From positions 124,001 through 188,000 of the forward strand of contig JAJECA010000060.1 in the NCBI GenBank assembly GCA_022822265.1: a DNA stretch of 64,000 nt, given 5' to 3'. The DNA comes from Acidimicrobiia bacterium (GTDB lineage: Bacteria > Actinomycetota > Acidimicrobiia > Acidimicrobiales > Bin134). Under the pieces are notes generated by a model. The model worked only from the letters and a program-made list of their open reading frames with translations. It was not told where the DNA came from and searched no databases. Below are positions 1,252 to 56,174 of the stretch, piece after piece; position 1 is the first letter of the stretch, and the number at the start of each line of letters is the position of its first letter. The position numbers and the translations under genes are program-made.

Positions 1252-2481
1252 GTGAAATCTGAGGCTTTGTCCCACATTCGCATCTGCGACTTCACCGGAC
1301 AGCTGGCCGGAGCAGGGGCCACCCGGTGGATGGCCGCCTTCGGGGCCGAGATCATCCGCATCGAAGATCCAGTGCGCCTGGGCAAATGGGATGTGCTCCG
1401 GGGAACGTCCCCGTTCGTGGACGACCGCCGAGGCCATGAGTTCGGCGGCTGCTTCAACAACCACAACGTGGAGAAGCTGGGGGTCACGCTCAACCTCCGC
1501 ACCGAGCGGGGCAAGGAGCTGCTGGCTGAGATCATCTCGGTGAGCGACGCAGTAACCGAGAACTTCGCCGCCGGGGTGCTGGAGCGCCTGGGTTTCGGCT
1601 ACGACCGTCTGCGAAAGATAAAGCCCGACATCTTGTACGTGTCCAACTGCGGGTTCGGCCACATCGGCCCCTATCGCAAGTACAAGACGTGGGGCCCGAT
1701 CGTGCAGGCCTGCTGCGGGCTCACGTTTACCTCCGGGCTTCCCGACATGCCCTCGGCCGGTTGGGGGTATTCCTACATGGACCACCACGGGGGGAACTTC
1801 ATGGCCATGGCCATCATGGCCGGGCTCATCCACCGCAGCCGCACCGGCGAGGGCCAGTGGATCGACATGTCGTGTACCGATGCCGGTGCCACCATGCTCG
1901 GCCCGGTGGCGCTGGACTACACCGTGAACGGACGGCCATTGCGACGCGACGGCATGCCCTATAGCAACCGCAGCCAGTTCCCGGCCATGGCCCCCCACGG
2001 CATCTATGAGGCCGACGGGCACGACGCGTGGCTGGCCCTAGCCGCCCGGGACGACCGCGATTGGCAGGCCATTGCCGGGCTCATGGGCATCGATGACAGC
2101 CGGTTTGATGATCTAACCGGCCGACTGGCCCATGAGGACGAGTTGGACGATGCCGTGCGGGCCTGGAGTTCGGGTCGGGATCGGTTCAAGGCCGCCTCCG
2201 AACTGCAAGCCGTCGGCGTGCCCGCTGCCGGCGTAGCCAAGCCGGAGGACCGAATCGACAACGACCTCAACACCGAGGACTGGGGCTTGTGGCCCACCGT
2301 CACCCACGGCGAGATGGGCCGGGTTCGGGTCGACGGCATTCCCGCCCATTTCTCCGAGACCGATTGGGTGCTGGAGCGAGGAGGTCCCCTATTGGGGCAG
2401 CACAACCGCCAGATTCTCGGGGGCCTGCTCGGTCATTCGGACGCCGAGTTAGCCGACTTGGCTGCGGAGGGGGTGATCTGA
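1252..2481 (+). CDS. CaiB/BaiF-type CoA-transferase (family III), subunit with catalytic Asp
   Basis: This 409-residue family III CoA-transferase moves CoA between carboxylic acids through an aspartyl-CoA intermediate. The N-terminal block (LSHIRICDFTGQLAGAG, FGAEIIRIE) and the GEGQWIDMS block are typical. Asp177, in YMDHHGG, sits where the active-site Asp of FRC/CaiB lies (about residue 169). The gene starts at GTG 1252 and its stop (TGA 2479-2481) shares a base with the ATG of the next CaiB gene, so the two are translationally coupled and probably form one enzyme. It heads an apparent operon with a thiolase-like and a DUF35 protein. The substrate is unknown; an aliphatic or steroid side-chain acid is plausible. 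Confidence 0.9.
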   Translation: MKSEALSHIRICDFTGQLAGAGATRWMAAFGAEIIRIEDPVRLGKWDVLRGTSPFVDDRRGHEFGGCFNNHNVEKLGVTLNLRTERGKELLAEIISVSDAVTENFAAGVLERLGFGYDRLRKIKPDILYVSNCGFGHIGPYRKYKTWGPIVQACCGLTFTSGLPDMPSAGWGYSYMDHHGGNFMAMAIMAGLIHRSRTGEGQWIDMSCTDAGATMLGPVALDYTVNGRPLRRDGMPYSNRSQFPAMAPHGIYEADGHDAWLALAARDDRDWQAIAGLMGIDDSRFDDLTGRLAHEDELDDAVRAWSSGRDRFKAASELQAVGVPAAGVAKPEDRIDNDLNTEDWGLWPTVTHGEMGRVRVDGIPAHFSETDWVLERGGPLLGQHNRQILGGLLGHSDAELADLAAEGVI

Positions 2482-3722
2482 TGACGGGGAACGATCTGCC
2501 CGGCGCTCTGGCTGGAATCCGAGTGGTGGAGCTGGCCGGAGAGGCCTCGGCCTATGCCGGGCTGCTGCTGGCCGGAATGGGGGCCGAGGTCATTGTGGTT
2601 GAGCCTCCCGATGGTCACCACACCCGGGGATTTGAGCCGTTTCTGCACGATGAGCCCGATCCCGAGCGCAGCCTGTGGTGGTGGCACTACAACGCCTCCA
2701 AGCTGGGCGTGACCCTGGATCTTGGGGATGAAGATGCTCGAGACCGGTTCCGCTCGCTGGTTGCCACCGCAGATGTGGTGCTGGAGTCGGAGCGTCCTGG
2801 CCGATTGGGCGACCTGGGCATCGACCACGACACTTTGCGGGCCGACCATCCCGAGTTGATCTGGGTATCGCTCACGCCGTTCGGCCGCAGCGGACCGCGG
2901 TCTCAAGAGGAGAGCATCGACCTGACCGTGCTGGCCGCGGGCGGGCCGGTGTGGAGCTGCGGTTACGACGACCACGCCATTCCGCCCCAGCGGGGCGGAG
3001 GCAACCAGGGGTACCAAACCGGCTCGGTGTTCGCAGTGCTCTCCACCCTGACCGCGCTGTTGGCCCGAGACCACTCCGGCCAAGGACAGTTCGTGGACGT
3101 CAGCATGCACGCGGCCGCCAACGTGACCACCGAGTTCGGCTCGGTGCAGTGGTTGGTGGCCGGCGACGAGGTGCAGCGCCAGACCGGGCGACACGCAGCC
3201 ATCGAGCCCACCACGTTCACCAGGGCACTGTCGGCGGACGGTATCGACGTGAACACCGGCTTCCCACCCCGCTCGGCCCGGGACTTCGCCGTGGTAGTGG
3301 AGTGGATGGAGAGCCTGGGGTTGAAGGACGACTTTGAAGAGTTCTTCTTCTTGGAGATGGGCGCGCAACTCGAAGAGGATCTGCATCTTTCGCAGGTGGG
3401 CCAGGATCCTGAGGTGACCGCCATGTTCGGCGCCGCCCGAGAGGCAGTCCGATTCATCTCCGAGAACATCACCGCCTACGAGTTCTTCATCGGCGCCCAA
3501 GAGCGGGGTTTGGCGGTGGGCATCATCTACTCGCCCGAAGAAGTGCTGGCCGACCCCCACTTCCAAGAGCGAGGCTTCCCCGTCGAAGTGGAGCACGAGG
3601 ACTTGGGCCGCAGCTTCACCTATCTGGGAGCGCCATACATCGCTCCCAAGTCCCCCTACCGCATCCGCCACCGCGCCCCCCACATAGGCGAGCACAACGA
3701 CCTACTCGAGGCTCTGGCCTAG
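2481..3722 (+). CDS. CaiB/BaiF-type CoA-transferase homologue lacking the catalytic Asp
   Basis: This 413-residue protein has the family III fold markers (LAGIRVVELAGEASAY, MGAEVIVVEPP, GQGQFVDVSMH). In the stretch where the nucleophilic Asp should be (residues about 172-186, GGGNQGYQTGSVF) there is no acidic residue. It is therefore likely a non-catalytic partner of the upstream, Asp-containing paralogue, to which it is coupled by a TGATG overlap. The start is ATG 2481; an upstream in-frame extension into the previous gene is rejected because it would overlap that gene by nearly 200 bases. A pseudo-heterodimer is inferred, since family III enzymes normally form interlocked dimers. The same active/inactive pairing recurs, fused, at 33553-35988. 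Confidence 0.85.
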   Translation: MTGNDLPGALAGIRVVELAGEASAYAGLLLAGMGAEVIVVEPPDGHHTRGFEPFLHDEPDPERSLWWWHYNASKLGVTLDLGDEDARDRFRSLVATADVVLESERPGRLGDLGIDHDTLRADHPELIWVSLTPFGRSGPRSQEESIDLTVLAAGGPVWSCGYDDHAIPPQRGGGNQGYQTGSVFAVLSTLTALLARDHSGQGQFVDVSMHAAANVTTEFGSVQWLVAGDEVQRQTGRHAAIEPTTFTRALSADGIDVNTGFPPRSARDFAVVVEWMESLGLKDDFEEFFFLEMGAQLEEDLHLSQVGQDPEVTAMFGAAREAVRFISENITAYEFFIGAQERGLAVGIIYSPEEVLADPHFQERGFPVEVEHEDLGRSFTYLGAPYIAPKSPYRIRHRAPHIGEHNDLLEALA

Positions 3723-12962: not shown

Positions 12963-14102
12963 ATGGGTCCGCTAAAGGGAATGCGCATCATCGAACTGGC
13001 TGGTATCGGGCCGACCCCGTTTGCCGGCATGATGCTGTCGGACATGGGTGCCGAGGTCATCCGGGTCGACCGGGTGGGCGGCTCGGGCAACCCGGTGGCC
13101 TCGCAGTCGGGTCCTATGGAGAGAGGCAAACGCACCGTGGCCTTCGACCTGAAACAGCCTGAGGGAGTGGAGGCAGTGCTCCGTCTGGTCGAGTCGTCCG
13201 ACGGGCTTTTCGAAGGCTTCCGGGCCGGTGTGGCCGAGCGCCTCGGCGTCGGACCCGATGCGTGTCTGGCCCGCAATCCCAAGCTGGTCTACGGACGAAT
13301 GACCGGTTGGGGCCAATCCGGGCCATTGGCCGACCGGGCCGGCCACGACATCAACTACATCTCATTGGCCGGGCCGCTGGCCCACATCGGGCGGAGAGGA
13401 CAGCCGCCGTCGGTGCCCCTCAACCTCATTGGCGACTTCGGGGGCGGCTCGGTGTTCCTGGTGCTGGGCATGGTGGCCGCCTTGTTGGAGGTAGCGAGGG
13501 GCGGCGACGGCCAGGTGGTGGATGCAGCCATGGTGGACGGTGCCGCCTATCTGCTGTCTCCCCTATACGCGGCCCACGCCAGCGGGTTCTGGACCGACGA
13601 ATACGGGGCAAATTTCTTGGACTCCGGAGCCTACTTCTACGAGGTGTACGGCACTGCCGACGGCAAATGGCTGGCGGTTGGCGCCATCGAGCCCCAATTC
13701 CATGCCGAATTCATGGCCGGGATTGGTCTGGCCGACGCCGACGACCTGCCCGACCAGATGGACCGGGACCGGTGGCCGGATATGAAGCAGCGGGTGGGCG
13801 AAATTATCGCGGAGCGCAGCCAAGATGAGTGGATGGCCGTATTCGACGGCACCGACGCCTGCGTCACCCCGGTGCTGACCATGGGCCAGACCCCGGCCCA
13901 CCCCCACGCTGTGGCCCGCGATTCGTTCTTCCAGTTCGACGGCGTCAACCAGCCCCGCCCTGCCCCCCGATTCGAGGGCACCCCTTCTGAGCCCGCAATG
14001 GCGTCGCAGCAAGCAGGGGCTGACACCGATGCGGTGCTCTCTGAGTTGGGGTACTCCACTGAGAAGGTGAAGGAGCTCCGGTCGTTGGGGGCGGTGGCCT
14101 GA
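12963..14102 (+). CDS. mcr: Alpha-methylacyl-CoA racemase
   Basis: The 379-residue family III fold enzyme interconverts (R)- and (S)-2-methylacyl-CoA esters, which is required before beta-oxidation of cholesterol side chains and branched fatty acids. The signature sites line up with those known for M. tuberculosis MCR (His126, Asp156, Glu241): here His128 (GHDINY), Asp158 (NLIGDFGGGS) and Glu243 (GAIEPQF), all shifted by two. Length is typical. It is transcribed alone from a leaderless promoter and diverges from an SDR/ADH pair. The nearby ipd and acyl-CoA dehydrogenase genes support a steroid side-chain role. Confidence 0.93.
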   Translation: MGPLKGMRIIELAGIGPTPFAGMMLSDMGAEVIRVDRVGGSGNPVASQSGPMERGKRTVAFDLKQPEGVEAVLRLVESSDGLFEGFRAGVAERLGVGPDACLARNPKLVYGRMTGWGQSGPLADRAGHDINYISLAGPLAHIGRRGQPPSVPLNLIGDFGGGSVFLVLGMVAALLEVARGGDGQVVDAAMVDGAAYLLSPLYAAHASGFWTDEYGANFLDSGAYFYEVYGTADGKWLAVGAIEPQFHAEFMAGIGLADADDLPDQMDRDRWPDMKQRVGEIIAERSQDEWMAVFDGTDACVTPVLTMGQTPAHPHAVARDSFFQFDGVNQPRPAPRFEGTPSEPAMASQQAGADTDAVLSELGYSTEKVKELRSLGAVA

Positions 14103-32640: not shown

Positions 32641-33543
32641 ATGGGAGAGAACAATTGGGGAAGATGGGGCGACGAGGATGAGCGGGGGGCGCTGAATCTG
32701 CTCACCCCCGACGTGGTGAAAGAGGCCAGTGCGTCGATCACCACCGGCAAGGTGTATCCGCTGGGCATTCCCATCCAGTCGCAGGGCGTTCCCATCATGG
32801 ACTACCGAGGCACGCCAATGCGGCTCACCCTCCAGAACGCCTCCGACGAGGGGATCTACGCGGCCTACGGCTGCCACGACGGCACCGGGGCCCATGAGGA
32901 CGTGCTGGTGTTCGCCTCCCACACCACCAGCCACATGGACGCCCTTTGCCATGTGTACGGCCAAGACCAGCACTACAACGGCTTCTCCAAGGAGGCCATG
33001 AAGACCCATACCGGGGCCTCCCGGCTGGGCATCGAGAAGGTGGGCGTTATCGCCGGGCGGGCCGTGCTGCTCGACATGGTGGCCCACATGGGTGCCGACA
33101 AGTGGCTGGAAGCGGGTACGCCGATCAGCGGGACCGACTTGGCCGCGTGCGCCGACGCCCAGGGCACCCCGGTGCGAGCCGGTGACATCGTGCTGATCCG
33201 CACCGGCTACCTCGACATGTGGTGGTCGATCGAGGCCGACCCCGCCGCTGAGCAGCCCTTCGCCCAGCCGGGCATCAACAACGACGGAGCCGAGTGGCTG
33301 ATGGCCCACGACGTGGTGGCCGTGGGGTCGGACAACGCGGCCATCGAGGTGATCCCGTTCGACGAGAACGACTTCCTTACCGTCCACAAGATCCTGCTGG
33401 TGGGTGCGGGCATCTACATGCTGGAGTTCTTGAACTTCTCTGAGATGGCCGCCGACGGGTGCCACGAGGGCTTCATGACCGTGTCCCCTCTCAACGTGAC
33501 CGGGGCCACCGGCAGCCCGATCAACCCTGTGGTAATCGGGTAG
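32641..33543 (+). CDS. Cyclase-family metal-dependent hydrolase (kynurenine formamidase-like)
   Basis: The 300-residue protein carries the metal motif of the cyclase/KynB family as HTTSHMDALCHVY (about residues 92-104), equivalent to HxGTHxDxxxH, and later GAEWLMAHDVVAVGSDNAAIE. Family members hydrolyse N-formylkynurenine, cyclise polyketides or open isatin-like and lactam rings. The N-terminal GRWGDEDERGALNLLTPD block is typical of the longer bacterial members. It heads a unit followed after 9 bases by the fused CoA-transferase, so it may act on the same acid. The substrate is unknown. Confidence 0.87.
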   Translation: MGENNWGRWGDEDERGALNLLTPDVVKEASASITTGKVYPLGIPIQSQGVPIMDYRGTPMRLTLQNASDEGIYAAYGCHDGTGAHEDVLVFASHTTSHMDALCHVYGQDQHYNGFSKEAMKTHTGASRLGIEKVGVIAGRAVLLDMVAHMGADKWLEAGTPISGTDLAACADAQGTPVRAGDIVLIRTGYLDMWWSIEADPAAEQPFAQPGINNDGAEWLMAHDVVAVGSDNAAIEVIPFDENDFLTVHKILLVGAGIYMLEFLNFSEMAADGCHEGFMTVSPLNVTGATGSPINPVVIG

Positions 33544-33552
33544 AACCCGCCC

Positions 33553-35988
33553 ATGCCCGAGATGGCCGGAGGAGGCCTGCTGGGCACCCCTGAGGGGGCG
33601 GTGCTCGACCAAGTGCGAGTGCTGGAGCTCACCCGCACCATCGGCGGGGCCTACACCGCCAAGCTGTTCGCCGATGCCGGGGCTGAGGTCATCATGATCG
33701 AACCCCCGGGCGGTGATCGGTTGCGGTCGTGGTCGGCATCGGGCTCGCCCGCGGGCGGCGATTCCGGCGACGGCGCGTTCTTCCAATTCCTCAACGCGGG
33801 CAAGCGCAGCATCGTGATCGACTTGGACGATTCTGGAGGCCGGGACCGGTTCCTGGAGTTGGCCGCCACCGCCGATCTGGTGGTGGAGGATTTGGGCGCC
33901 GGGACCGTCGAGTCAATGGGGCTGGGCCACGCTGATCTGGCCGAACAGAATCCCGCCTTGGTGCTGTTGTCGATCTCTCCCTGGGGCCGTGGTGGACCGT
34001 GGGACCATCGCCCAGCCAACGAGTTCACCCTCCAATCCTGGGTGGGTTCCACCCACAGCCGGGGCATTCCCGGGGAAATGCCCCTCGGGGTGGGGGGCAA
34101 GCTGGGGGAGTTCCTGACCGCAGCAAACGCCAGTTCACTGGGACTGGCCGCATTGATATCCGCCCGGCGAGATGGCGCTCAGGGCGAGCATGTGGACATC
34201 TCGGCCTACGAGGCCATGACCACCAGCTTCATTGTCTATGCCCACCTCTACGCCACCTACGCCCCAGAATCCCGCACTGGGGCCACTCGCTCCATCGAGA
34301 TCCCCTCGATAGAGCAGGCCAAAGACGGCTGGGTGGGCTTTTGCACCATCACCGGCCAGCAGTTCAAGGACTTCTGCGTGGTCATCGACGACCCCGAAAT
34401 GGCCGACGATCCGAAGCTGTCCAGCGGTGACGGCCGGATGGACAACCGCAACGAGGTTTGGGAGCGCATCGCCCGCTACACCAAGGCCCACACCGTGGAC
34501 GAGATCGTGGAGAAAGCCACCTTGTTGCGGGTGCCCGTGGCCCCCATCGGAGACGGCAGCCGTGTGGCCCAAATCGACCACTTCGCCGAGCGGGGCGTCT
34601 ACGTGGAGAACCCCGGCGGATTCACCCAACCTCGAGTGCCCTACAAGCTCAGTTCTCGGCCACCTCGCCCGGTGCCGCTTGCTCCTGCTCTGGGAGAAGC
34701 AGGTGATGAACTGCTGGGGGCGAAAGGCGGTTCGGGGGGAGCCCTGAGCCCGCGGCCGGCCCGTACGGAGCCTTCGCTCCCGCTTGCCGGAATCCGGGTG
34801 TGCGATCTGGCCACCTTCTGGGCCGGGCCGGTGGCATCGTGTCTGTACTCTGCTTTGGGCGCCGACGTCATCAAGGTGGAGTCCATCCAGCGGTGCGACG
34901 GGATGCGCTATGCCAGCGGGCTCAAACGCGACGACCTGTGGGAGTGGAGCCCGGTGACACACGGGGCCAACACCGGCAAGCGCTCGGTGACGCTGGACTT
35001 GTCCAGCGAAGACGGCTTGGCTCAGGTGAAGCGGCTTATCGAGATATCCGACATCGTGATCGAGAACTACTCCCCGCGGGTGGTGGAGAACTTCGGCTTG
35101 GACTGGGACGAGGTTCACCGGCTGAACCCCAACGCCATCATGGTGCGGATGCCCGCCTTCGGGCTCGATGGACCGTGGCGCGATCGCACCGGCTTCGCCA
35201 TGACCATCGAGCAGGCCAGCGGTTTGGCCTTCCTCACCGGCGATCCCGAGGGCCGGCCACTCGTCCCCCGGGGGATGTGCGACCAGCTTGGTGGGATGCA
35301 CGCGGTGTTCGCCACCCTGCTGGCCCTCGAGCACCGGGCCCAGACCGGTGAGGCGCAATTGGTAGAGGTTCCCCTGATTGAGGCTGGGTTGAATGCGGCA
35401 GCCGAGCAGGTGATCGAGTGGACTGCCTACGGACAGCTCCTCCAACGCCAGGGCAACCGTTCGCCCTACTCCGCCCCCCAAGGCATCTACGCCGCGCCGG
35501 GCGAAGACCAGTGGGTGGTGATTTCGGTGGACAACGATGCCCAATGGCCGGCATTAGCCCGACTCCTTGGCCGTGAGGATTGGGTGGTGTGGGCCAGCCG
35601 GGACGAGCGCCATGCCCACCACGACAAGATCGACGCCGCCATCAGCGCATGGGTGGCCGAGCGGGACCGGGATGCCGCCGTGGACGAGCTCCTTGAAGCC
35701 GGTGTGCCCGCCGCCCCGGTTATCAGCGGCCGGGAGTCGGTTGACAACCCTCAGCTTGTCGCTCGGGGCCACCAACAGTGGATGGACCACGTAGTGGTTG
35801 GGCGAGTGCCCTATCCCAGCTTCCCTGGCCGGTTCAACGGCCAATACCACCGTCTGGGCCGCCCCGCTCCCACCCTGGGAGAGCACAACGAGGAGATCTT
35901 GCGCGACGTGCTCGGCCTCGACGCATCCGAGATCGCCCGCCTGGCCGAAACCAAAGTCATCGGCACCCGTCCCGCCCATGCGGGCTGA
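33553..35988 (+). CDS. Fused tandem CaiB/BaiF CoA-transferase (inactive-type plus active-type domain)
   Basis: The 811-residue protein is twice the usual family III length and contains two complete CaiB/BaiF domains, about residues 16-385 and 411-800. A Gly/Ser/Pro-rich linker (about 388-410) joins them. The C-terminal domain has Asp577 (GMCDQLGGMHA) at the active-site position. The N-terminal domain has GGKLGEFLTAAN there, without Asp (the nearest acid is Glu186). Family III enzymes act as interlocked dimers, so the fusion may be a covalent pseudo-dimer. It mirrors the split pair at 1252-3722 in reverse order. It follows the cyclase-family gene by 9 bases; the substrate is unknown. Confidence 0.88.
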   Translation: MPEMAGGGLLGTPEGAVLDQVRVLELTRTIGGAYTAKLFADAGAEVIMIEPPGGDRLRSWSASGSPAGGDSGDGAFFQFLNAGKRSIVIDLDDSGGRDRFLELAATADLVVEDLGAGTVESMGLGHADLAEQNPALVLLSISPWGRGGPWDHRPANEFTLQSWVGSTHSRGIPGEMPLGVGGKLGEFLTAANASSLGLAALISARRDGAQGEHVDISAYEAMTTSFIVYAHLYATYAPESRTGATRSIEIPSIEQAKDGWVGFCTITGQQFKDFCVVIDDPEMADDPKLSSGDGRMDNRNEVWERIARYTKAHTVDEIVEKATLLRVPVAPIGDGSRVAQIDHFAERGVYVENPGGFTQPRVPYKLSSRPPRPVPLAPALGEAGDELLGAKGGSGGALSPRPARTEPSLPLAGIRVCDLATFWAGPVASCLYSALGADVIKVESIQRCDGMRYASGLKRDDLWEWSPVTHGANTGKRSVTLDLSSEDGLAQVKRLIEISDIVIENYSPRVVENFGLDWDEVHRLNPNAIMVRMPAFGLDGPWRDRTGFAMTIEQASGLAFLTGDPEGRPLVPRGMCDQLGGMHAVFATLLALEHRAQTGEAQLVEVPLIEAGLNAAAEQVIEWTAYGQLLQRQGNRSPYSAPQGIYAAPGEDQWVVISVDNDAQWPALARLLGREDWVVWASRDERHAHHDKIDAAISAWVAERDRDAAVDELLEAGVPAAPVISGRESVDNPQLVARGHQQWMDHVVVGRVPYPSFPGRFNGQYHRLGRPAPTLGEHNEEILRDVLGLDASEIARLAETKVIGTRPAHAG

Positions 35989-36040: not shown

Positions 36041-37213
36041 ATGTTCCTCGACCTCACCGAAAGCCAGCTTGAGCTGCAAGCCACCCTGCGGAACTACTTC
36101 GAGAACCTGATGACCGCCGAACGGCGGGACGCCATGGAAGGCAGGCGGGCGGGGCAGGTTTACCGTGAGACCGTCCGCCAGATGGGCAAGGATGGCTGGC
36201 TGGGGGTGGGCTGGCCCAAGGAGTGGGGCGGGCAGGGCTACACCCCGCTGGAGCAGCTCATCTTCTTCGAGGAGGCCAACCGGGCCGGTGTGCCCTTGCC
36301 GTTCGTGACCCTCAACACGGTGGGACCGGCACTGAACGTGTACGGAACCGAGGAGCAGAAGGAGTTCTTCCTGCCCAAGATCCTGGCCGGCGAGTTGCAC
36401 TTTTCCATCGGCTACTCCGAGCCCACCGCGGGCACCGACTTGGCCTCGCTCAAGACCCGGGCGGTGCGCGACGGCGACGAGTGGATCATCAACGGCCAGA
36501 AGATCTGGACCACCGGCGGCCACGAGTCCGACTGGATATGGCTGGCCACCCGCACCGATCCCGACGTGCCCAAGCACAAGGGCATCACCATTTTTGCTGT
36601 GGACACGACCCTGGACGGCTTCAGCCACACCCCCATTTGGCTGCTGGGCGGGGGCCACACCAACGCCACCTATTACAACGACATCCGGGTGCCCGACTGG
36701 GCCCGCATCGGCGAGGTCAACGGCGGCTGGAAGCTCATCACCGCCCAGCTCAACCACGAGCGGGTGGGCCTGGCTCCAGCGGGCAACATCGACGGGCCAC
36801 TGCGTCGGGTGGTGGACTGGGCTCGCCAGACCACCCTGGGCGACGGGCGCCGGGTGATCGACCAGGAGTGGGTGCGGCTGGCCCTGGCCGAGGTGTACGC
36901 CCGCAACGAGGCGCTCAAGATGTACAACTGGAAGGTGGCTACCGCACTGGAGGACACCGAGCTGAAGCCGGCCGATGCCTCGGCCATGAAGGTGTTCGGT
37001 ACCGAGCTGAAGGTGAAGTCGTTCCAAGCCCTCATGGAGGTGCTGGGGCAGCGGTCATACCTGGTGAAGGGCACGCCGGAGGCGGTGCTCGGCGGCGAGT
37101 TGGAGCGGGCCTACCGGGGAGCGCCGGTGGGAACCTTCGGCGGGGGAGTGAACGAGGTCCAGCGCGACATCATCGCCACTGCGGGGATGGGGTTGCCCCG
37201 GTCGCCTCGCTAG
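36041..37213 (+). CDS. Acyl-CoA dehydrogenase resembling steroid side-chain FadE26/FadE29 (ChsE4/ChsE2)
   Basis: The 390-residue ACAD has FSIGYSEPTAGTDLASLKTRAVRDGDEW (positions about 121-148; key residues Ser, Glu, Thr, Asp), INGQKIWTTGGHE, THxNATYYND and a catalytic-Glu candidate at Glu240 (QLNHERV). The C-terminal FGGGVNEVQRDII replaces the usual EGT-EIQ. These blocks resemble mycobacterial FadE26 and FadE29, the alpha-type subunits of the enzymes that desaturate cholesterol side-chain CoA esters. Those work with a beta partner (FadE27/FadE28), but here the next gene is a convergent SDR, so the partner is missing locally. The stop overlaps that SDR's stop by 4 bases. Confidence 0.9.
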   Translation: MFLDLTESQLELQATLRNYFENLMTAERRDAMEGRRAGQVYRETVRQMGKDGWLGVGWPKEWGGQGYTPLEQLIFFEEANRAGVPLPFVTLNTVGPALNVYGTEEQKEFFLPKILAGELHFSIGYSEPTAGTDLASLKTRAVRDGDEWIINGQKIWTTGGHESDWIWLATRTDPDVPKHKGITIFAVDTTLDGFSHTPIWLLGGGHTNATYYNDIRVPDWARIGEVNGGWKLITAQLNHERVGLAPAGNIDGPLRRVVDWARQTTLGDGRRVIDQEWVRLALAEVYARNEALKMYNWKVATALEDTELKPADASAMKVFGTELKVKSFQALMEVLGQRSYLVKGTPEAVLGGELERAYRGAPVGTFGGGVNEVQRDIIATAGMGLPRSPR

Positions 37214-53816: not shown

Positions 53817-56174
53817 GTGAAGGTGCTGTTGAGCTGGCTGCGGGAGTTCGCCCCCGACATCGACGGCGACCCCGAGCAGTTGGCTGAAGTACTAGCCGAC
53901 TTGGGCCTGGCGGTGGAGGAGCTGTCCCATGTGGGGCGGGGGCTGGACGGCATCGTGATCGCCGAAGTGCTGGCCACCCGGCCCCATCCCGATGCCGACC
54001 GGATTCACCTAGTGGACGTGGACGCCGGCGACGGCGAGGCCCTCCAAGTGTGCTGTGGGGCCTTCAACATGGCGGTGGGCGACTTGGTGCCGCTGGCCAC
54101 TGTGGGAACCACCATGCCCAACGGCATTGAGATTGCCCGCCGCAAAATGCGGGGCGAGTGGAGCAACGGAATGCTGTGCTCGGGGGCCGAGATAGGCATG
54201 GGCGACGACCACGAGGGCATCTTGATCTTGGAACAGGACCTGTCGTTGGGACTCCCCTTGGCCGAGGCGCTGGGCATCCACCCCGATGTGTTGTTCGACC
54301 TGGAGGTGAACCCCAACCGCCCCGACGCCATGTCGGTTATGGGCGTGGCCCGCGACCTGGCCGCCCGCATGGGAGTGCCCTTCTCGGTCGCGGTTCCCGA
54401 TGTCAATCAGACCGGAACGCCCGCGGCCGAGCGGGCGTCGGTGAGCATCGCCGCCCCCGATTTCTGCCAGCGCTTTGGGGTGCGAGTGCTCGACAATGTT
54501 CCCTCGGGAGCGTCGCCCCGATGGATGGCCAACCGGTTGTTGGCCGTGGGGCAGCGGCCCATCAACGCGGTGGTCGACCTGTCCAACTACGTGATGTTCG
54601 AGCTGGGCCAGCCCAACCACACTTACGACCTCAATCTCGTACCCGGCGGGGAGCTGGGGGTGCGCATGGCCCATCGGGGCGAAGAGTTGATCACTTTGGA
54701 CGGCACGGCACGGGCTCTCACCACCTACGACGGGGTGATCGTCAACCGCGACGACGAGGCCATCGGCCTGGCCGGGATCATGGGCGGGGCCTCCACAGAG
54801 ATCTCCACTGACACCCGCTCGGTGCTGCTGGAAGCCGCCTGGTGGGATCCCATGACCATCGCCCGAACCGCCCGCCGATTGGGCCTGCGCAGCGAGGCCT
54901 CGGCCCGCTTCGAGCGGGGCGCCGACCCCGACATCATCCCTTTGGCGCTGGACCGCTTTGCCGAGCTGGCCGCCGCCCTCGGATCAACCACTGCCCCCGG
55001 CATGATCGACGCCGCCGGCAATCGCCCTGAGCCGAGCACCGTTCGGGTCCGCTCACGACGGGTCAATTCCATATTGGGCACCGACCTGAGCACCAGCGAG
55101 ATGACCGGCCTGCTCGAGCCCATCGGGTTCGCCTGCGAGACGGGCGGCGACAGCCAGGACTTCAACGTCACCATCCCGTCGTGGCGGCTGGATTCGGCCA
55201 CCGAGATCGACGTGATCGAGGAAGTGGGCCGGCTTCACGGCTTCTCCAAGATCGCCCGCACCGTCCCGGTGACCGAGCAGGCCGGCGCTCTCACCTCCCA
55301 GCAACTAGACCGCCGCCAGGTCCGGGCATTGCTCACCGGCATGGGGATCTCCGAGGCCATGCCCCTGCCCTTCCTAGCCCCCGGCGATCTGGCCGCAGCC
55401 GGCCTCGGCGACGACGGCATAACCGTGACCAACCCGCTGGTGGCCGAGGAGTCGATAATGCGGACTTCGCTGCGCCCCGGTCTGTTGAAGGCATTGGCCT
55501 ACAACGCCGCCCGGCGCACCACCGGGGTGTCGCTGTTCGAGATTGGCCGGGTGAATCCCGGCGGGGGAGGGGATCTCCCCGATGAGCATGAGCACCTCGC
55601 CGTGATCCTGGCCGGTCAAGAGGCCACCGCCGCCACCACACTGTGGCGCCGCCTGGCCCGCCATCTGACCGTGACGCGCCCCGGCGTGGTCAACGGCCCA
55701 GTAGACGGCCTTCATCCGGGCCGGTCGGGCCAAGTGCTGGCCGACGGCCAGCCGGTCGGCGCGCTGGGCGAGATCGACCCCCAAGTGCTGGATGCCTATG
55801 AGATCGATGAGCGGGTGGCCTGGCTGGAAGTTGATCTGGGCGCTCTATTGGAAGCTGATCGAGCCCTGGCCCCGTATCGAGCCCCCAGCCGCTACCCGTC
55901 CAGCGACGTGGATCTGGCCTTCACCGTTCCCGACGAGGTGTCGGCCGATGAGGTGTCCGCCACCATCGCCGAGGCCGGAGGCGAATTGCTGGCCTCAGTC
56001 GCCCTGTTCGACGTGTTCCGCTCCGACCAACTCGGCGAAGGCCACCGCAGCCTGGCTTTCACCCTCCGCTTCGAAGCCCCCGACCGCACCCTCAACGACG
56101 CCGAAGTAGCCAAGGCCCGCCAATCCTGCATCGACGCCGTCACAGCAACCCACAACGCCTCCCTCCGCGGCTGA
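53817..56174 (+). CDS. pheT: Phenylalanyl-tRNA synthetase beta subunit
   Basis: The 785-residue beta subunit has an N-terminal EMAP/tRNA-binding domain (about residues 40-150, with VLATRPHPDADRIHLVDVD). The B3/B4 editing domain (GLRSEASARFERGADPD and VNPNRPDA blocks), B5 repeats, a catalytic-like core and the C-terminal FDX-ACB anticodon-binding domain (SRYPSSDVDLAFTVPD at about 680) follow. The GTG start at 53817 directly begins KVLLSWLREF, the family N-terminus. The argC promoter lies 20 bases after its stop. Confidence 0.95.
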   Translation: MKVLLSWLREFAPDIDGDPEQLAEVLADLGLAVEELSHVGRGLDGIVIAEVLATRPHPDADRIHLVDVDAGDGEALQVCCGAFNMAVGDLVPLATVGTTMPNGIEIARRKMRGEWSNGMLCSGAEIGMGDDHEGILILEQDLSLGLPLAEALGIHPDVLFDLEVNPNRPDAMSVMGVARDLAARMGVPFSVAVPDVNQTGTPAAERASVSIAAPDFCQRFGVRVLDNVPSGASPRWMANRLLAVGQRPINAVVDLSNYVMFELGQPNHTYDLNLVPGGELGVRMAHRGEELITLDGTARALTTYDGVIVNRDDEAIGLAGIMGGASTEISTDTRSVLLEAAWWDPMTIARTARRLGLRSEASARFERGADPDIIPLALDRFAELAAALGSTTAPGMIDAAGNRPEPSTVRVRSRRVNSILGTDLSTSEMTGLLEPIGFACETGGDSQDFNVTIPSWRLDSATEIDVIEEVGRLHGFSKIARTVPVTEQAGALTSQQLDRRQVRALLTGMGISEAMPLPFLAPGDLAAAGLGDDGITVTNPLVAEESIMRTSLRPGLLKALAYNAARRTTGVSLFEIGRVNPGGGGDLPDEHEHLAVILAGQEATAATTLWRRLARHLTVTRPGVVNGPVDGLHPGRSGQVLADGQPVGALGEIDPQVLDAYEIDERVAWLEVDLGALLEADRALAPYRAPSRYPSSDVDLAFTVPDEVSADEVSATIAEAGGELLASVALFDVFRSDQLGEGHRSLAFTLRFEAPDRTLNDAEVAKARQSCIDAVTATHNASLRG

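Follow-up and report, generated by a model that had tools for sequence, protein, structure and literature searches.

A fused double family III CoA-transferase of an Acidimicrobiia bacterium, probably with one working site and a pseudo-site that keeps an acidic residue

The window analysed here is a stretch of 64,000 nucleotides from an Acidimicrobiia bacterium (contig JAJECA010000060.1, positions 124,001 to 188,000). One of its genes is a genuine open frame for a protein of 811 residues in which PF02515 (CoA_transf_3) matches two stretches, with a total of 593.8 bits against a curated cut-off of 23.3, the strongest stretch being residues 411-779. According to both Pfam and our own HMM, the two halves are full-length family III domains, in agreement with the initial annotation, which had described 811 residues with two complete domains of this family. 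The features of the gene and its direct neighbours are collected in Table 1. A second long frame of the window, at 53817-56174, was also considered and was found to encode the phenylalanyl-tRNA synthetase beta chain.

Table 1. Features of the fused CoA-transferase gene and of its direct neighbours, in window coordinates
Feature	Position	Strand	Remark	Basis
PF04199 cyclase-family hydrolase	32641..33543	+	Directly upstream; neighbour conserved in the genus	Pfam, ortholog loci
Fused double CoA-transferase family III	33553..35988	+	811 aa	ORF, Pfam
Domain 1 (A-type, Asp-less)	33589..34722	+	Residues 13-390	Own HMM
EDLGAG	33886..33903	+	Residues 112-117, domain 1; degenerate counterpart of the E-N-F-x-P-G loop	Alignment
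E186 (GAG)	34108..34110	+	Stands in domain 1 at the place of the catalytic Asp; some orthologs have an Asp (GAT) here	Alignments
R246	34288..34290	+	Domain 1, at the place of the YfdE GNxH-loop His; by homology faces D577	Alignment
Linker	34723..34767	+	Residues 391-405; short	Own HMM boundaries
Domain 2 (B-type, Asp-bearing)	34768..35919	+	Residues 406-789	Own HMM
ENYSPR	35062..35079	+	Residues 504-509, domain 2; conserved CoA-loop counterpart, the last residue being R, usually G	Alignment
D577 (GAC)	35281..35283	+	Catalytic Asp of domain 2; counterpart of BbsEF D178	Alignments
RQGNRS	35446..35463	+	Residues 632-637, GN loop of domain 2; by homology faces E186	Alignment
Acyl-CoA dehydrogenase	36041..37213	+	Next gene downstream, as in most copies within the genus	Pfam, ortholog loci

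In domain 2, D577 aligns with the family III catalytic Asp, as had been annotated. At the same place domain 1 reads VGGKLGEFLTA, and the earlier description of GGKLGEFL as a motif without Asp is correct; the residue is not just lost, however, and a Glu (E186) stands exactly there and fills the site. This Glu falls on the catalytic position in five PDB alignments, the stretch P177-E186 being ungapped, and the residue opposite it is Asp in 4ed9, YfdE (Asp173, by manual count on the alignment), 10uh and 9br7, and Tyr in chain A of BbsEF. Because E186 aligns there without a gap, the catalytic site of domain 1 is substituted, not empty.

The same genome (3.5 Mb) gave 39 matches in a PF02515 profile search, 19 of which fall in nine open frames with two domains each, the other 20 being single domains; 33 of these domains were aligned together with four references. 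All nine fused proteins hold an Asp in domain 2 and none of them holds one in domain 1, where the residue is E in four, S in three, Y in one and H in one. Among the single-domain members the catalytic Asp is present in 16/20 (including L001, L003, L005, L006 and the window frame at 12963-14102), and the four Asp-less ones carry G, V, I and Y. The single-domain member with Ile at this place is L025 (C52:53100-55900). Three adjacent unfused pairs were seen in the genome, and in every one of them an Asp-less partner stands beside one that has the Asp. An adjacent unfused CoA-transferase pair of the BbsEF kind lies in the window (1252-2481 and 2289-3722), with the Asp subunit first and the Tyr subunit second, and an ortholog pair at another locus (L125) shows the same D and Y.

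Searches with the window protein (E<=1e-60, own genome counted) found a match for 19 of 22 genomes in the genus. In the class and the phylum, where five and three candidates per genome, respectively, were scored, at least 51 of 198 and at least 18 of 296 genomes had one, some of these matches spanning a single domain. The named relatives are Acidimicrobiia and bacterial metagenome bins, one of which belongs to the marine group Sva0996; in the viral sequence collection the window protein found no relative. The loci of relatives were the best matches, up to 30 per search, a sample biased toward closer relatives, and 77 two-domain frames were read from 129 loci, identical frames being counted once and one-half fragments left out (among others L045, L074 and L128, with E, and L103, L110 and L111, with D). 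The residues of domain 1 and domain 2 in these 77 frames are E/D in 59, D/D in 10, S/D in 4, Y/D in 3 and H/D in 1. Seventy of the fused proteins, at least 42% identical in domain 2 (the next one reaches 34%), are called here the clan; its members have E (59), D (10) or Y (1) in domain 1, which is therefore acidic in 69/70, and Asp in domain 2 in 70/70. Five further fused proteins are encoded on plasmids, three of Rhodococcus (L144-L146) being E/D, one of Cupriavidus A/D and one of Bosea S/D. Adjoining unfused Glu and Asp subunits were seen at L075, on a contig labelled Bacillota, and at L133, on a contig of the viral set. A contig labelled Gemmatimonadetes (L074) carries the 5' half of an ortholog (88%), again preceded by the cyclase; a binning error or transfer is the probable cause.

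The absence of an Asp from domain 1 at the place of FRC Asp169, on which the initial annotation relied, holds for the window protein with its E186 and does not hold for all of its relatives: an Asp stands there in 10/70 clan members and in 7 of the 18 most similar copies within the genus, counting that of the window, the other 11 having Glu. In a set that overlaps these copies, 15 named orthologs, the codon is GAT (Asp) in six and GAG or GAA (Glu) in nine. The two residues differ between orthologs that are 94-97% identical per domain, and no other restoration of the domain 1 site was seen in the Asp-bearing orthologs. Among 38 clan members less than 80% identical to each other, the column reads E34 D3 Y1 (acidic in 37/38), and only 38 of 350 columns have lower entropy. 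A quick clan tree, built without this column and with SH-aLRT as its only support, shows seven gains or losses of the domain 1 Asp, at least five of which are forced by branches with SH-aLRT of at least 95. Because of the composition of this column and of these forced changes, the acid appears to have been exchanged repeatedly yet hardly ever lost. These counts, and an E/D exchange that recurred with a single escape, make it highly improbable that domain 1 is a dead scaffold in plain decay with a Glu present by chance, even if five of the genome's fused genes have S, Y or H there, which would agree with such a decay.

The family loop E-N-F-x-P-G, known from FRC structures, binds CoA. In the same 38 non-redundant clan members, its counterpart in domain 2 holds E in 36 and N, F/Y, P and R in all 38, and that of domain 1 holds E in 13, mostly S (17) or D (9) at the place of the N, has lost the F, and holds P in 16 and G in 18. 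To judge from this alignment, little of the usual CoA-binding loop is left in domain 1, and domain 2 keeps it. R58 of domain 1 is R in 36/38.

Each active site of YfdE is formed by two subunits, and Asp173 and the GNxH-loop His233 of one site belong to different subunits (PMC3720670, in the text available). Mapped on YfdE, D577 is faced by a loop of domain 1 that has an Arg (R246) at the His place in 32/38, and E186 is faced by the R632-x-G-N-R636 loop of domain 2 (R36, G36, N34 and R31 of 38). In each of the 69 acidic clan members an Arg occupies the 632 or the 636 place, and the sole Tyr member (L099) has one at neither. Outside the clan, five of the seven fused proteins, none of which is acidic, have no Arg at either place and two have one. 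Arg at the two places is also common in single-domain enzymes (16/24 and 9/24). The acid-Arg pattern thus fits a salt bridge between E186 and the domain 2 loop, and it represents one event in the clan, confounded by descent.

These data bear on what E186 might do. Both sites might work, E186 (Asp in orthologs) being the second nucleophile of an asymmetric two-site transferase, perhaps for different acids. Indeed, an acid kept in nearly all clan members could be catalytic, which counts against a pseudo-site, and the domain 2 loop that faces E186 is the more standard of the two in its G and N. Moreover, family I CoA-transferases do use a Glu nucleophile, and the intermediates of family III are an aspartyl anhydride and an aspartyl-CoA thioester (available text of PMC9813914). 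Nevertheless, the CoA loop of domain 1 is mostly gone, and the chain length of a nucleophile should matter, whereas D and E replace each other in almost identical orthologs. The D169E variant of formyl-CoA transferase has been made and solved (1vgr, PDB title). This variant is reportedly inactive, which also speaks against a second nucleophile. We thus hold a second working site of this kind to be unlikely: the swap at such identity, with no other restoration, makes a role as nucleophile unlikely and favours a structural or charge role. An enzyme with two unequal sites, the usual Asp site and a Glu/Asp site at which an intermediate becomes bound to the enzyme although the standard CoA pocket is lacking, seems quite improbable; if true, it would place Glu chemistry like that of family I within the fold of family III and link two acids in a single molecule. 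The E186 site may also have a job unrelated to CoA: it might bind an effector or a small acid, or carry out base chemistry of the kind known from the family's racemase branch. The site acid and R58, both kept where the CoA loop is not, would be in line with such a job; the genomic context suggests no ligand or reaction for it, the annotated neighbours being ordinary acyl-CoA and redox genes, and we consider it rather unlikely.

The relationships of the two halves were studied in a quick domain tree of 67 rows (SH-aLRT only), a chosen subset made up of 16 fused proteins from the set of 77, four of the five plasmid ones, single domains and four references. One clade with SH-aLRT 99 contains the domain 2 of 9/9 clan members, of 5/7 other fused proteins and of 4/4 plasmid proteins, together with the Asp-bearing chain B of BbsEF and the Asp subunits of the window pair, L125 and L075. 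The nine clan domain 1s and two Rhodococcus domain 1s form a second clade, also with SH-aLRT 99, and close to it lie the Tyr subunit of the window pair and chain A of BbsEF, most of the forks on which the position of domain 1 depends being weak or open. Because both halves of L013 and L016 fall elsewhere on this tree (fork 94), it suggests more than one fusion event.

A full-length AlphaFold2 model had a mean pLDDT of 75.0 and a pTM of 0.85; an input of 16 rows 83-95% identical gave a pLDDT of 48.9, and 75.0 was reached on addition of ten single-domain rows from the viral collection, all of which aligned to domain 2. The loop 226-250 around R246 has a pLDDT below 50 in the model. The best PDB match of the model in Foldseek is chain D of BbsEF, with a TM of 0.90 by target length. 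In the PDB, entry 9fol has 'D178-CoA adduct' in its title, and the Asp aligned to D577 is residue 178 by manual count. By analogy with the family, we infer that the halves interlock like two subunits. The initial annotation had proposed a covalent pair of an active and an inactive domain, that is, a single-site pseudo-heterodimer. Part of this stands, given the Asp, the CoA loop and the grouping of domain 2 with the Asp chain of BbsEF, and a domain 1 that lacks the Asp and most of the loop; the idea of a simple loss of the residue does not. Given the D/E swap between orthologs, domain 1 is likely inactive.

Pfam agrees with the annotation of a cyclase-family hydrolase and an acyl-CoA dehydrogenase as the neighbours of the gene. 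Among the 16 named ortholog loci (L059-L074), the cyclase lies directly upstream in 15, L069 beginning within the gene, and the dehydrogenase lies downstream in 14, L064 being without one in 2 kb and L074 coming to its end. About 0.7 kb of extra DNA separates transferase and dehydrogenase in L061, L067, L071 and L072 and is not seen in the other two-gene named orthologs. L049, a second copy in another genome of the genus, has neither cyclase nor dehydrogenase in its 1.5 kb flanks. Beyond the genus (tblastn, E<=1e-5, at least 60 residues), neither neighbour was found in the 1.5 kb flanks of full-length clan relatives, bar a dehydrogenase at 39% at L099. A cyclase at 31-33% occurs near three single-domain homologs (L113, L116 and L118). 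On the Rhodococcus rhodochrous plasmid (L144), a dehydrogenase 52% identical to that of the window lies two genes upstream of the fused E/D transferase, and the other two Rhodococcus loci hold acyl-CoA dehydrogenases, an enoyl-CoA hydratase and SDRs, with a P450 in one of them. The Bosea locus has transporter genes in place of acyl-CoA genes, and the Cupriavidus locus carries no annotation.

The dehydrogenase had been described as steroid side-chain-type and a steroid acid had been proposed as the substrate of the transferase. The best of its 20 NCBIfam matches is the large subunit of pimeloyl-CoA dehydrogenase, whose 209.7 bits fall short of the cut-off (623.85), and no steroid model is among the 20. 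Further on, the window has two SDRs and two luciferase-like genes, and both SDRs stay far under the cut-offs of the 7-alpha-hydroxysteroid dehydrogenase models (e.g. 167.9 against 367 bits), which are among more than 200 SDR models matched. The steroid side-chain type was not borne out, and on these two grounds the steroid link was rejected. As a guess, a route from oxidation over a lactone to the hydrolase, CoA transfer and beta-oxidation would fit the context. The 56 luciferase-like matches of the genome and its 39 family III matches recall the SAR202 Chloroflexi, of another phylum. That group has many CaiB/BaiF, luciferase-like monooxygenase and SDR genes, and an oxidation of refractory ring compounds has been proposed for SAR202 (PMC5395668, in the part available), to which the guessed route would be close.

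Among known systems, BbsEF is the closest solved relative and the best structural match, with the class III fold in common. In both, one unit has the catalytic Asp (D178 in BbsEF) and the other is without it; BbsEF consists, however, of two separate proteins with a Tyr in the Asp-less one, whereas the fused protein is one chain with a putative Glu/Asp pseudo-site. The CoA donor of BbsEF is succinyl-CoA, according to the accessible text of PMC10818641. A literature search that covered few subscription papers found no paper on the BbsEF structure, and an exact-phrase search of the same coverage found none on fused or tandem CaiB domains. DddD, a DMSP CoA-transferase/lyase, does have two CaiB domains in one chain (PMC7174347, in the text available). 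It is likened to the fused protein by architecture, and its lyase activity is not expected of the fused protein. Alcolombri et al. 2014 are said to have placed the catalytic Asp (Asp602) in the second domain of DddD. FRC/YfdW and YfdE share the fold and the catalytic Asp with the fused protein but are homodimers with two equal sites, whereas in the fused domain 1 an Arg loop replaces the GNxH or Gly-rich loop. A pair of one active and one Asp-less unit is thus already known from BbsEF and a fused two-CaiB chain from DddD, and the idea is not new in kind; the new twist is the acid retained at the pseudo-site.

In our opinion, the protein is probably a fused A-B enzyme of the BbsEF type, in which one site works and the other is a pseudo-site that retains its acid for reasons of structure or charge. 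Two unlike class III subunits would be joined in one chain, A before B, with their halves interlocked. The single standard site would be made of the Rossmann part of domain 2 (D577 and ENYSPR) and the small-domain loop of domain 1, where the conserved R246, in place of the GNxH His, probably binds the acceptor carboxylate. Following the family mechanism, D577 would accept the acyl group from the donor CoA ester to give a mixed anhydride, and the aspartyl-CoA thioester then present on D577 would hand the CoA to the acceptor acid. This acceptor is probably an acid from ring or side-chain oxidation, whose CoA ester would feed the neighbouring acyl-CoA dehydrogenase. The second site, in which E186 faces R632-x-G-N-R636, would be the pseudo-site, with most of its CoA loop gone, and selection would keep the carboxylate of E186 there, its most likely role being to pair with the loop of domain 2 through its charge or a salt bridge.

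To conclude, the fused protein unites the theme of the Asp-less subunit, as in BbsEF, with that of a fused two-CaiB chain, and it would contain a pseudo-active site in which the acid has outlasted most of the CoA loop, Glu and Asp having replaced each other repeatedly. Versions with E and with D, at about 95% identity per domain, exist naturally, which makes the role of the acid directly measurable. Moreover, the rule that the second half has the Asp and the first half does not, seen in all nine fused genes of this genome, may help to annotate fused CoA-transferases elsewhere.
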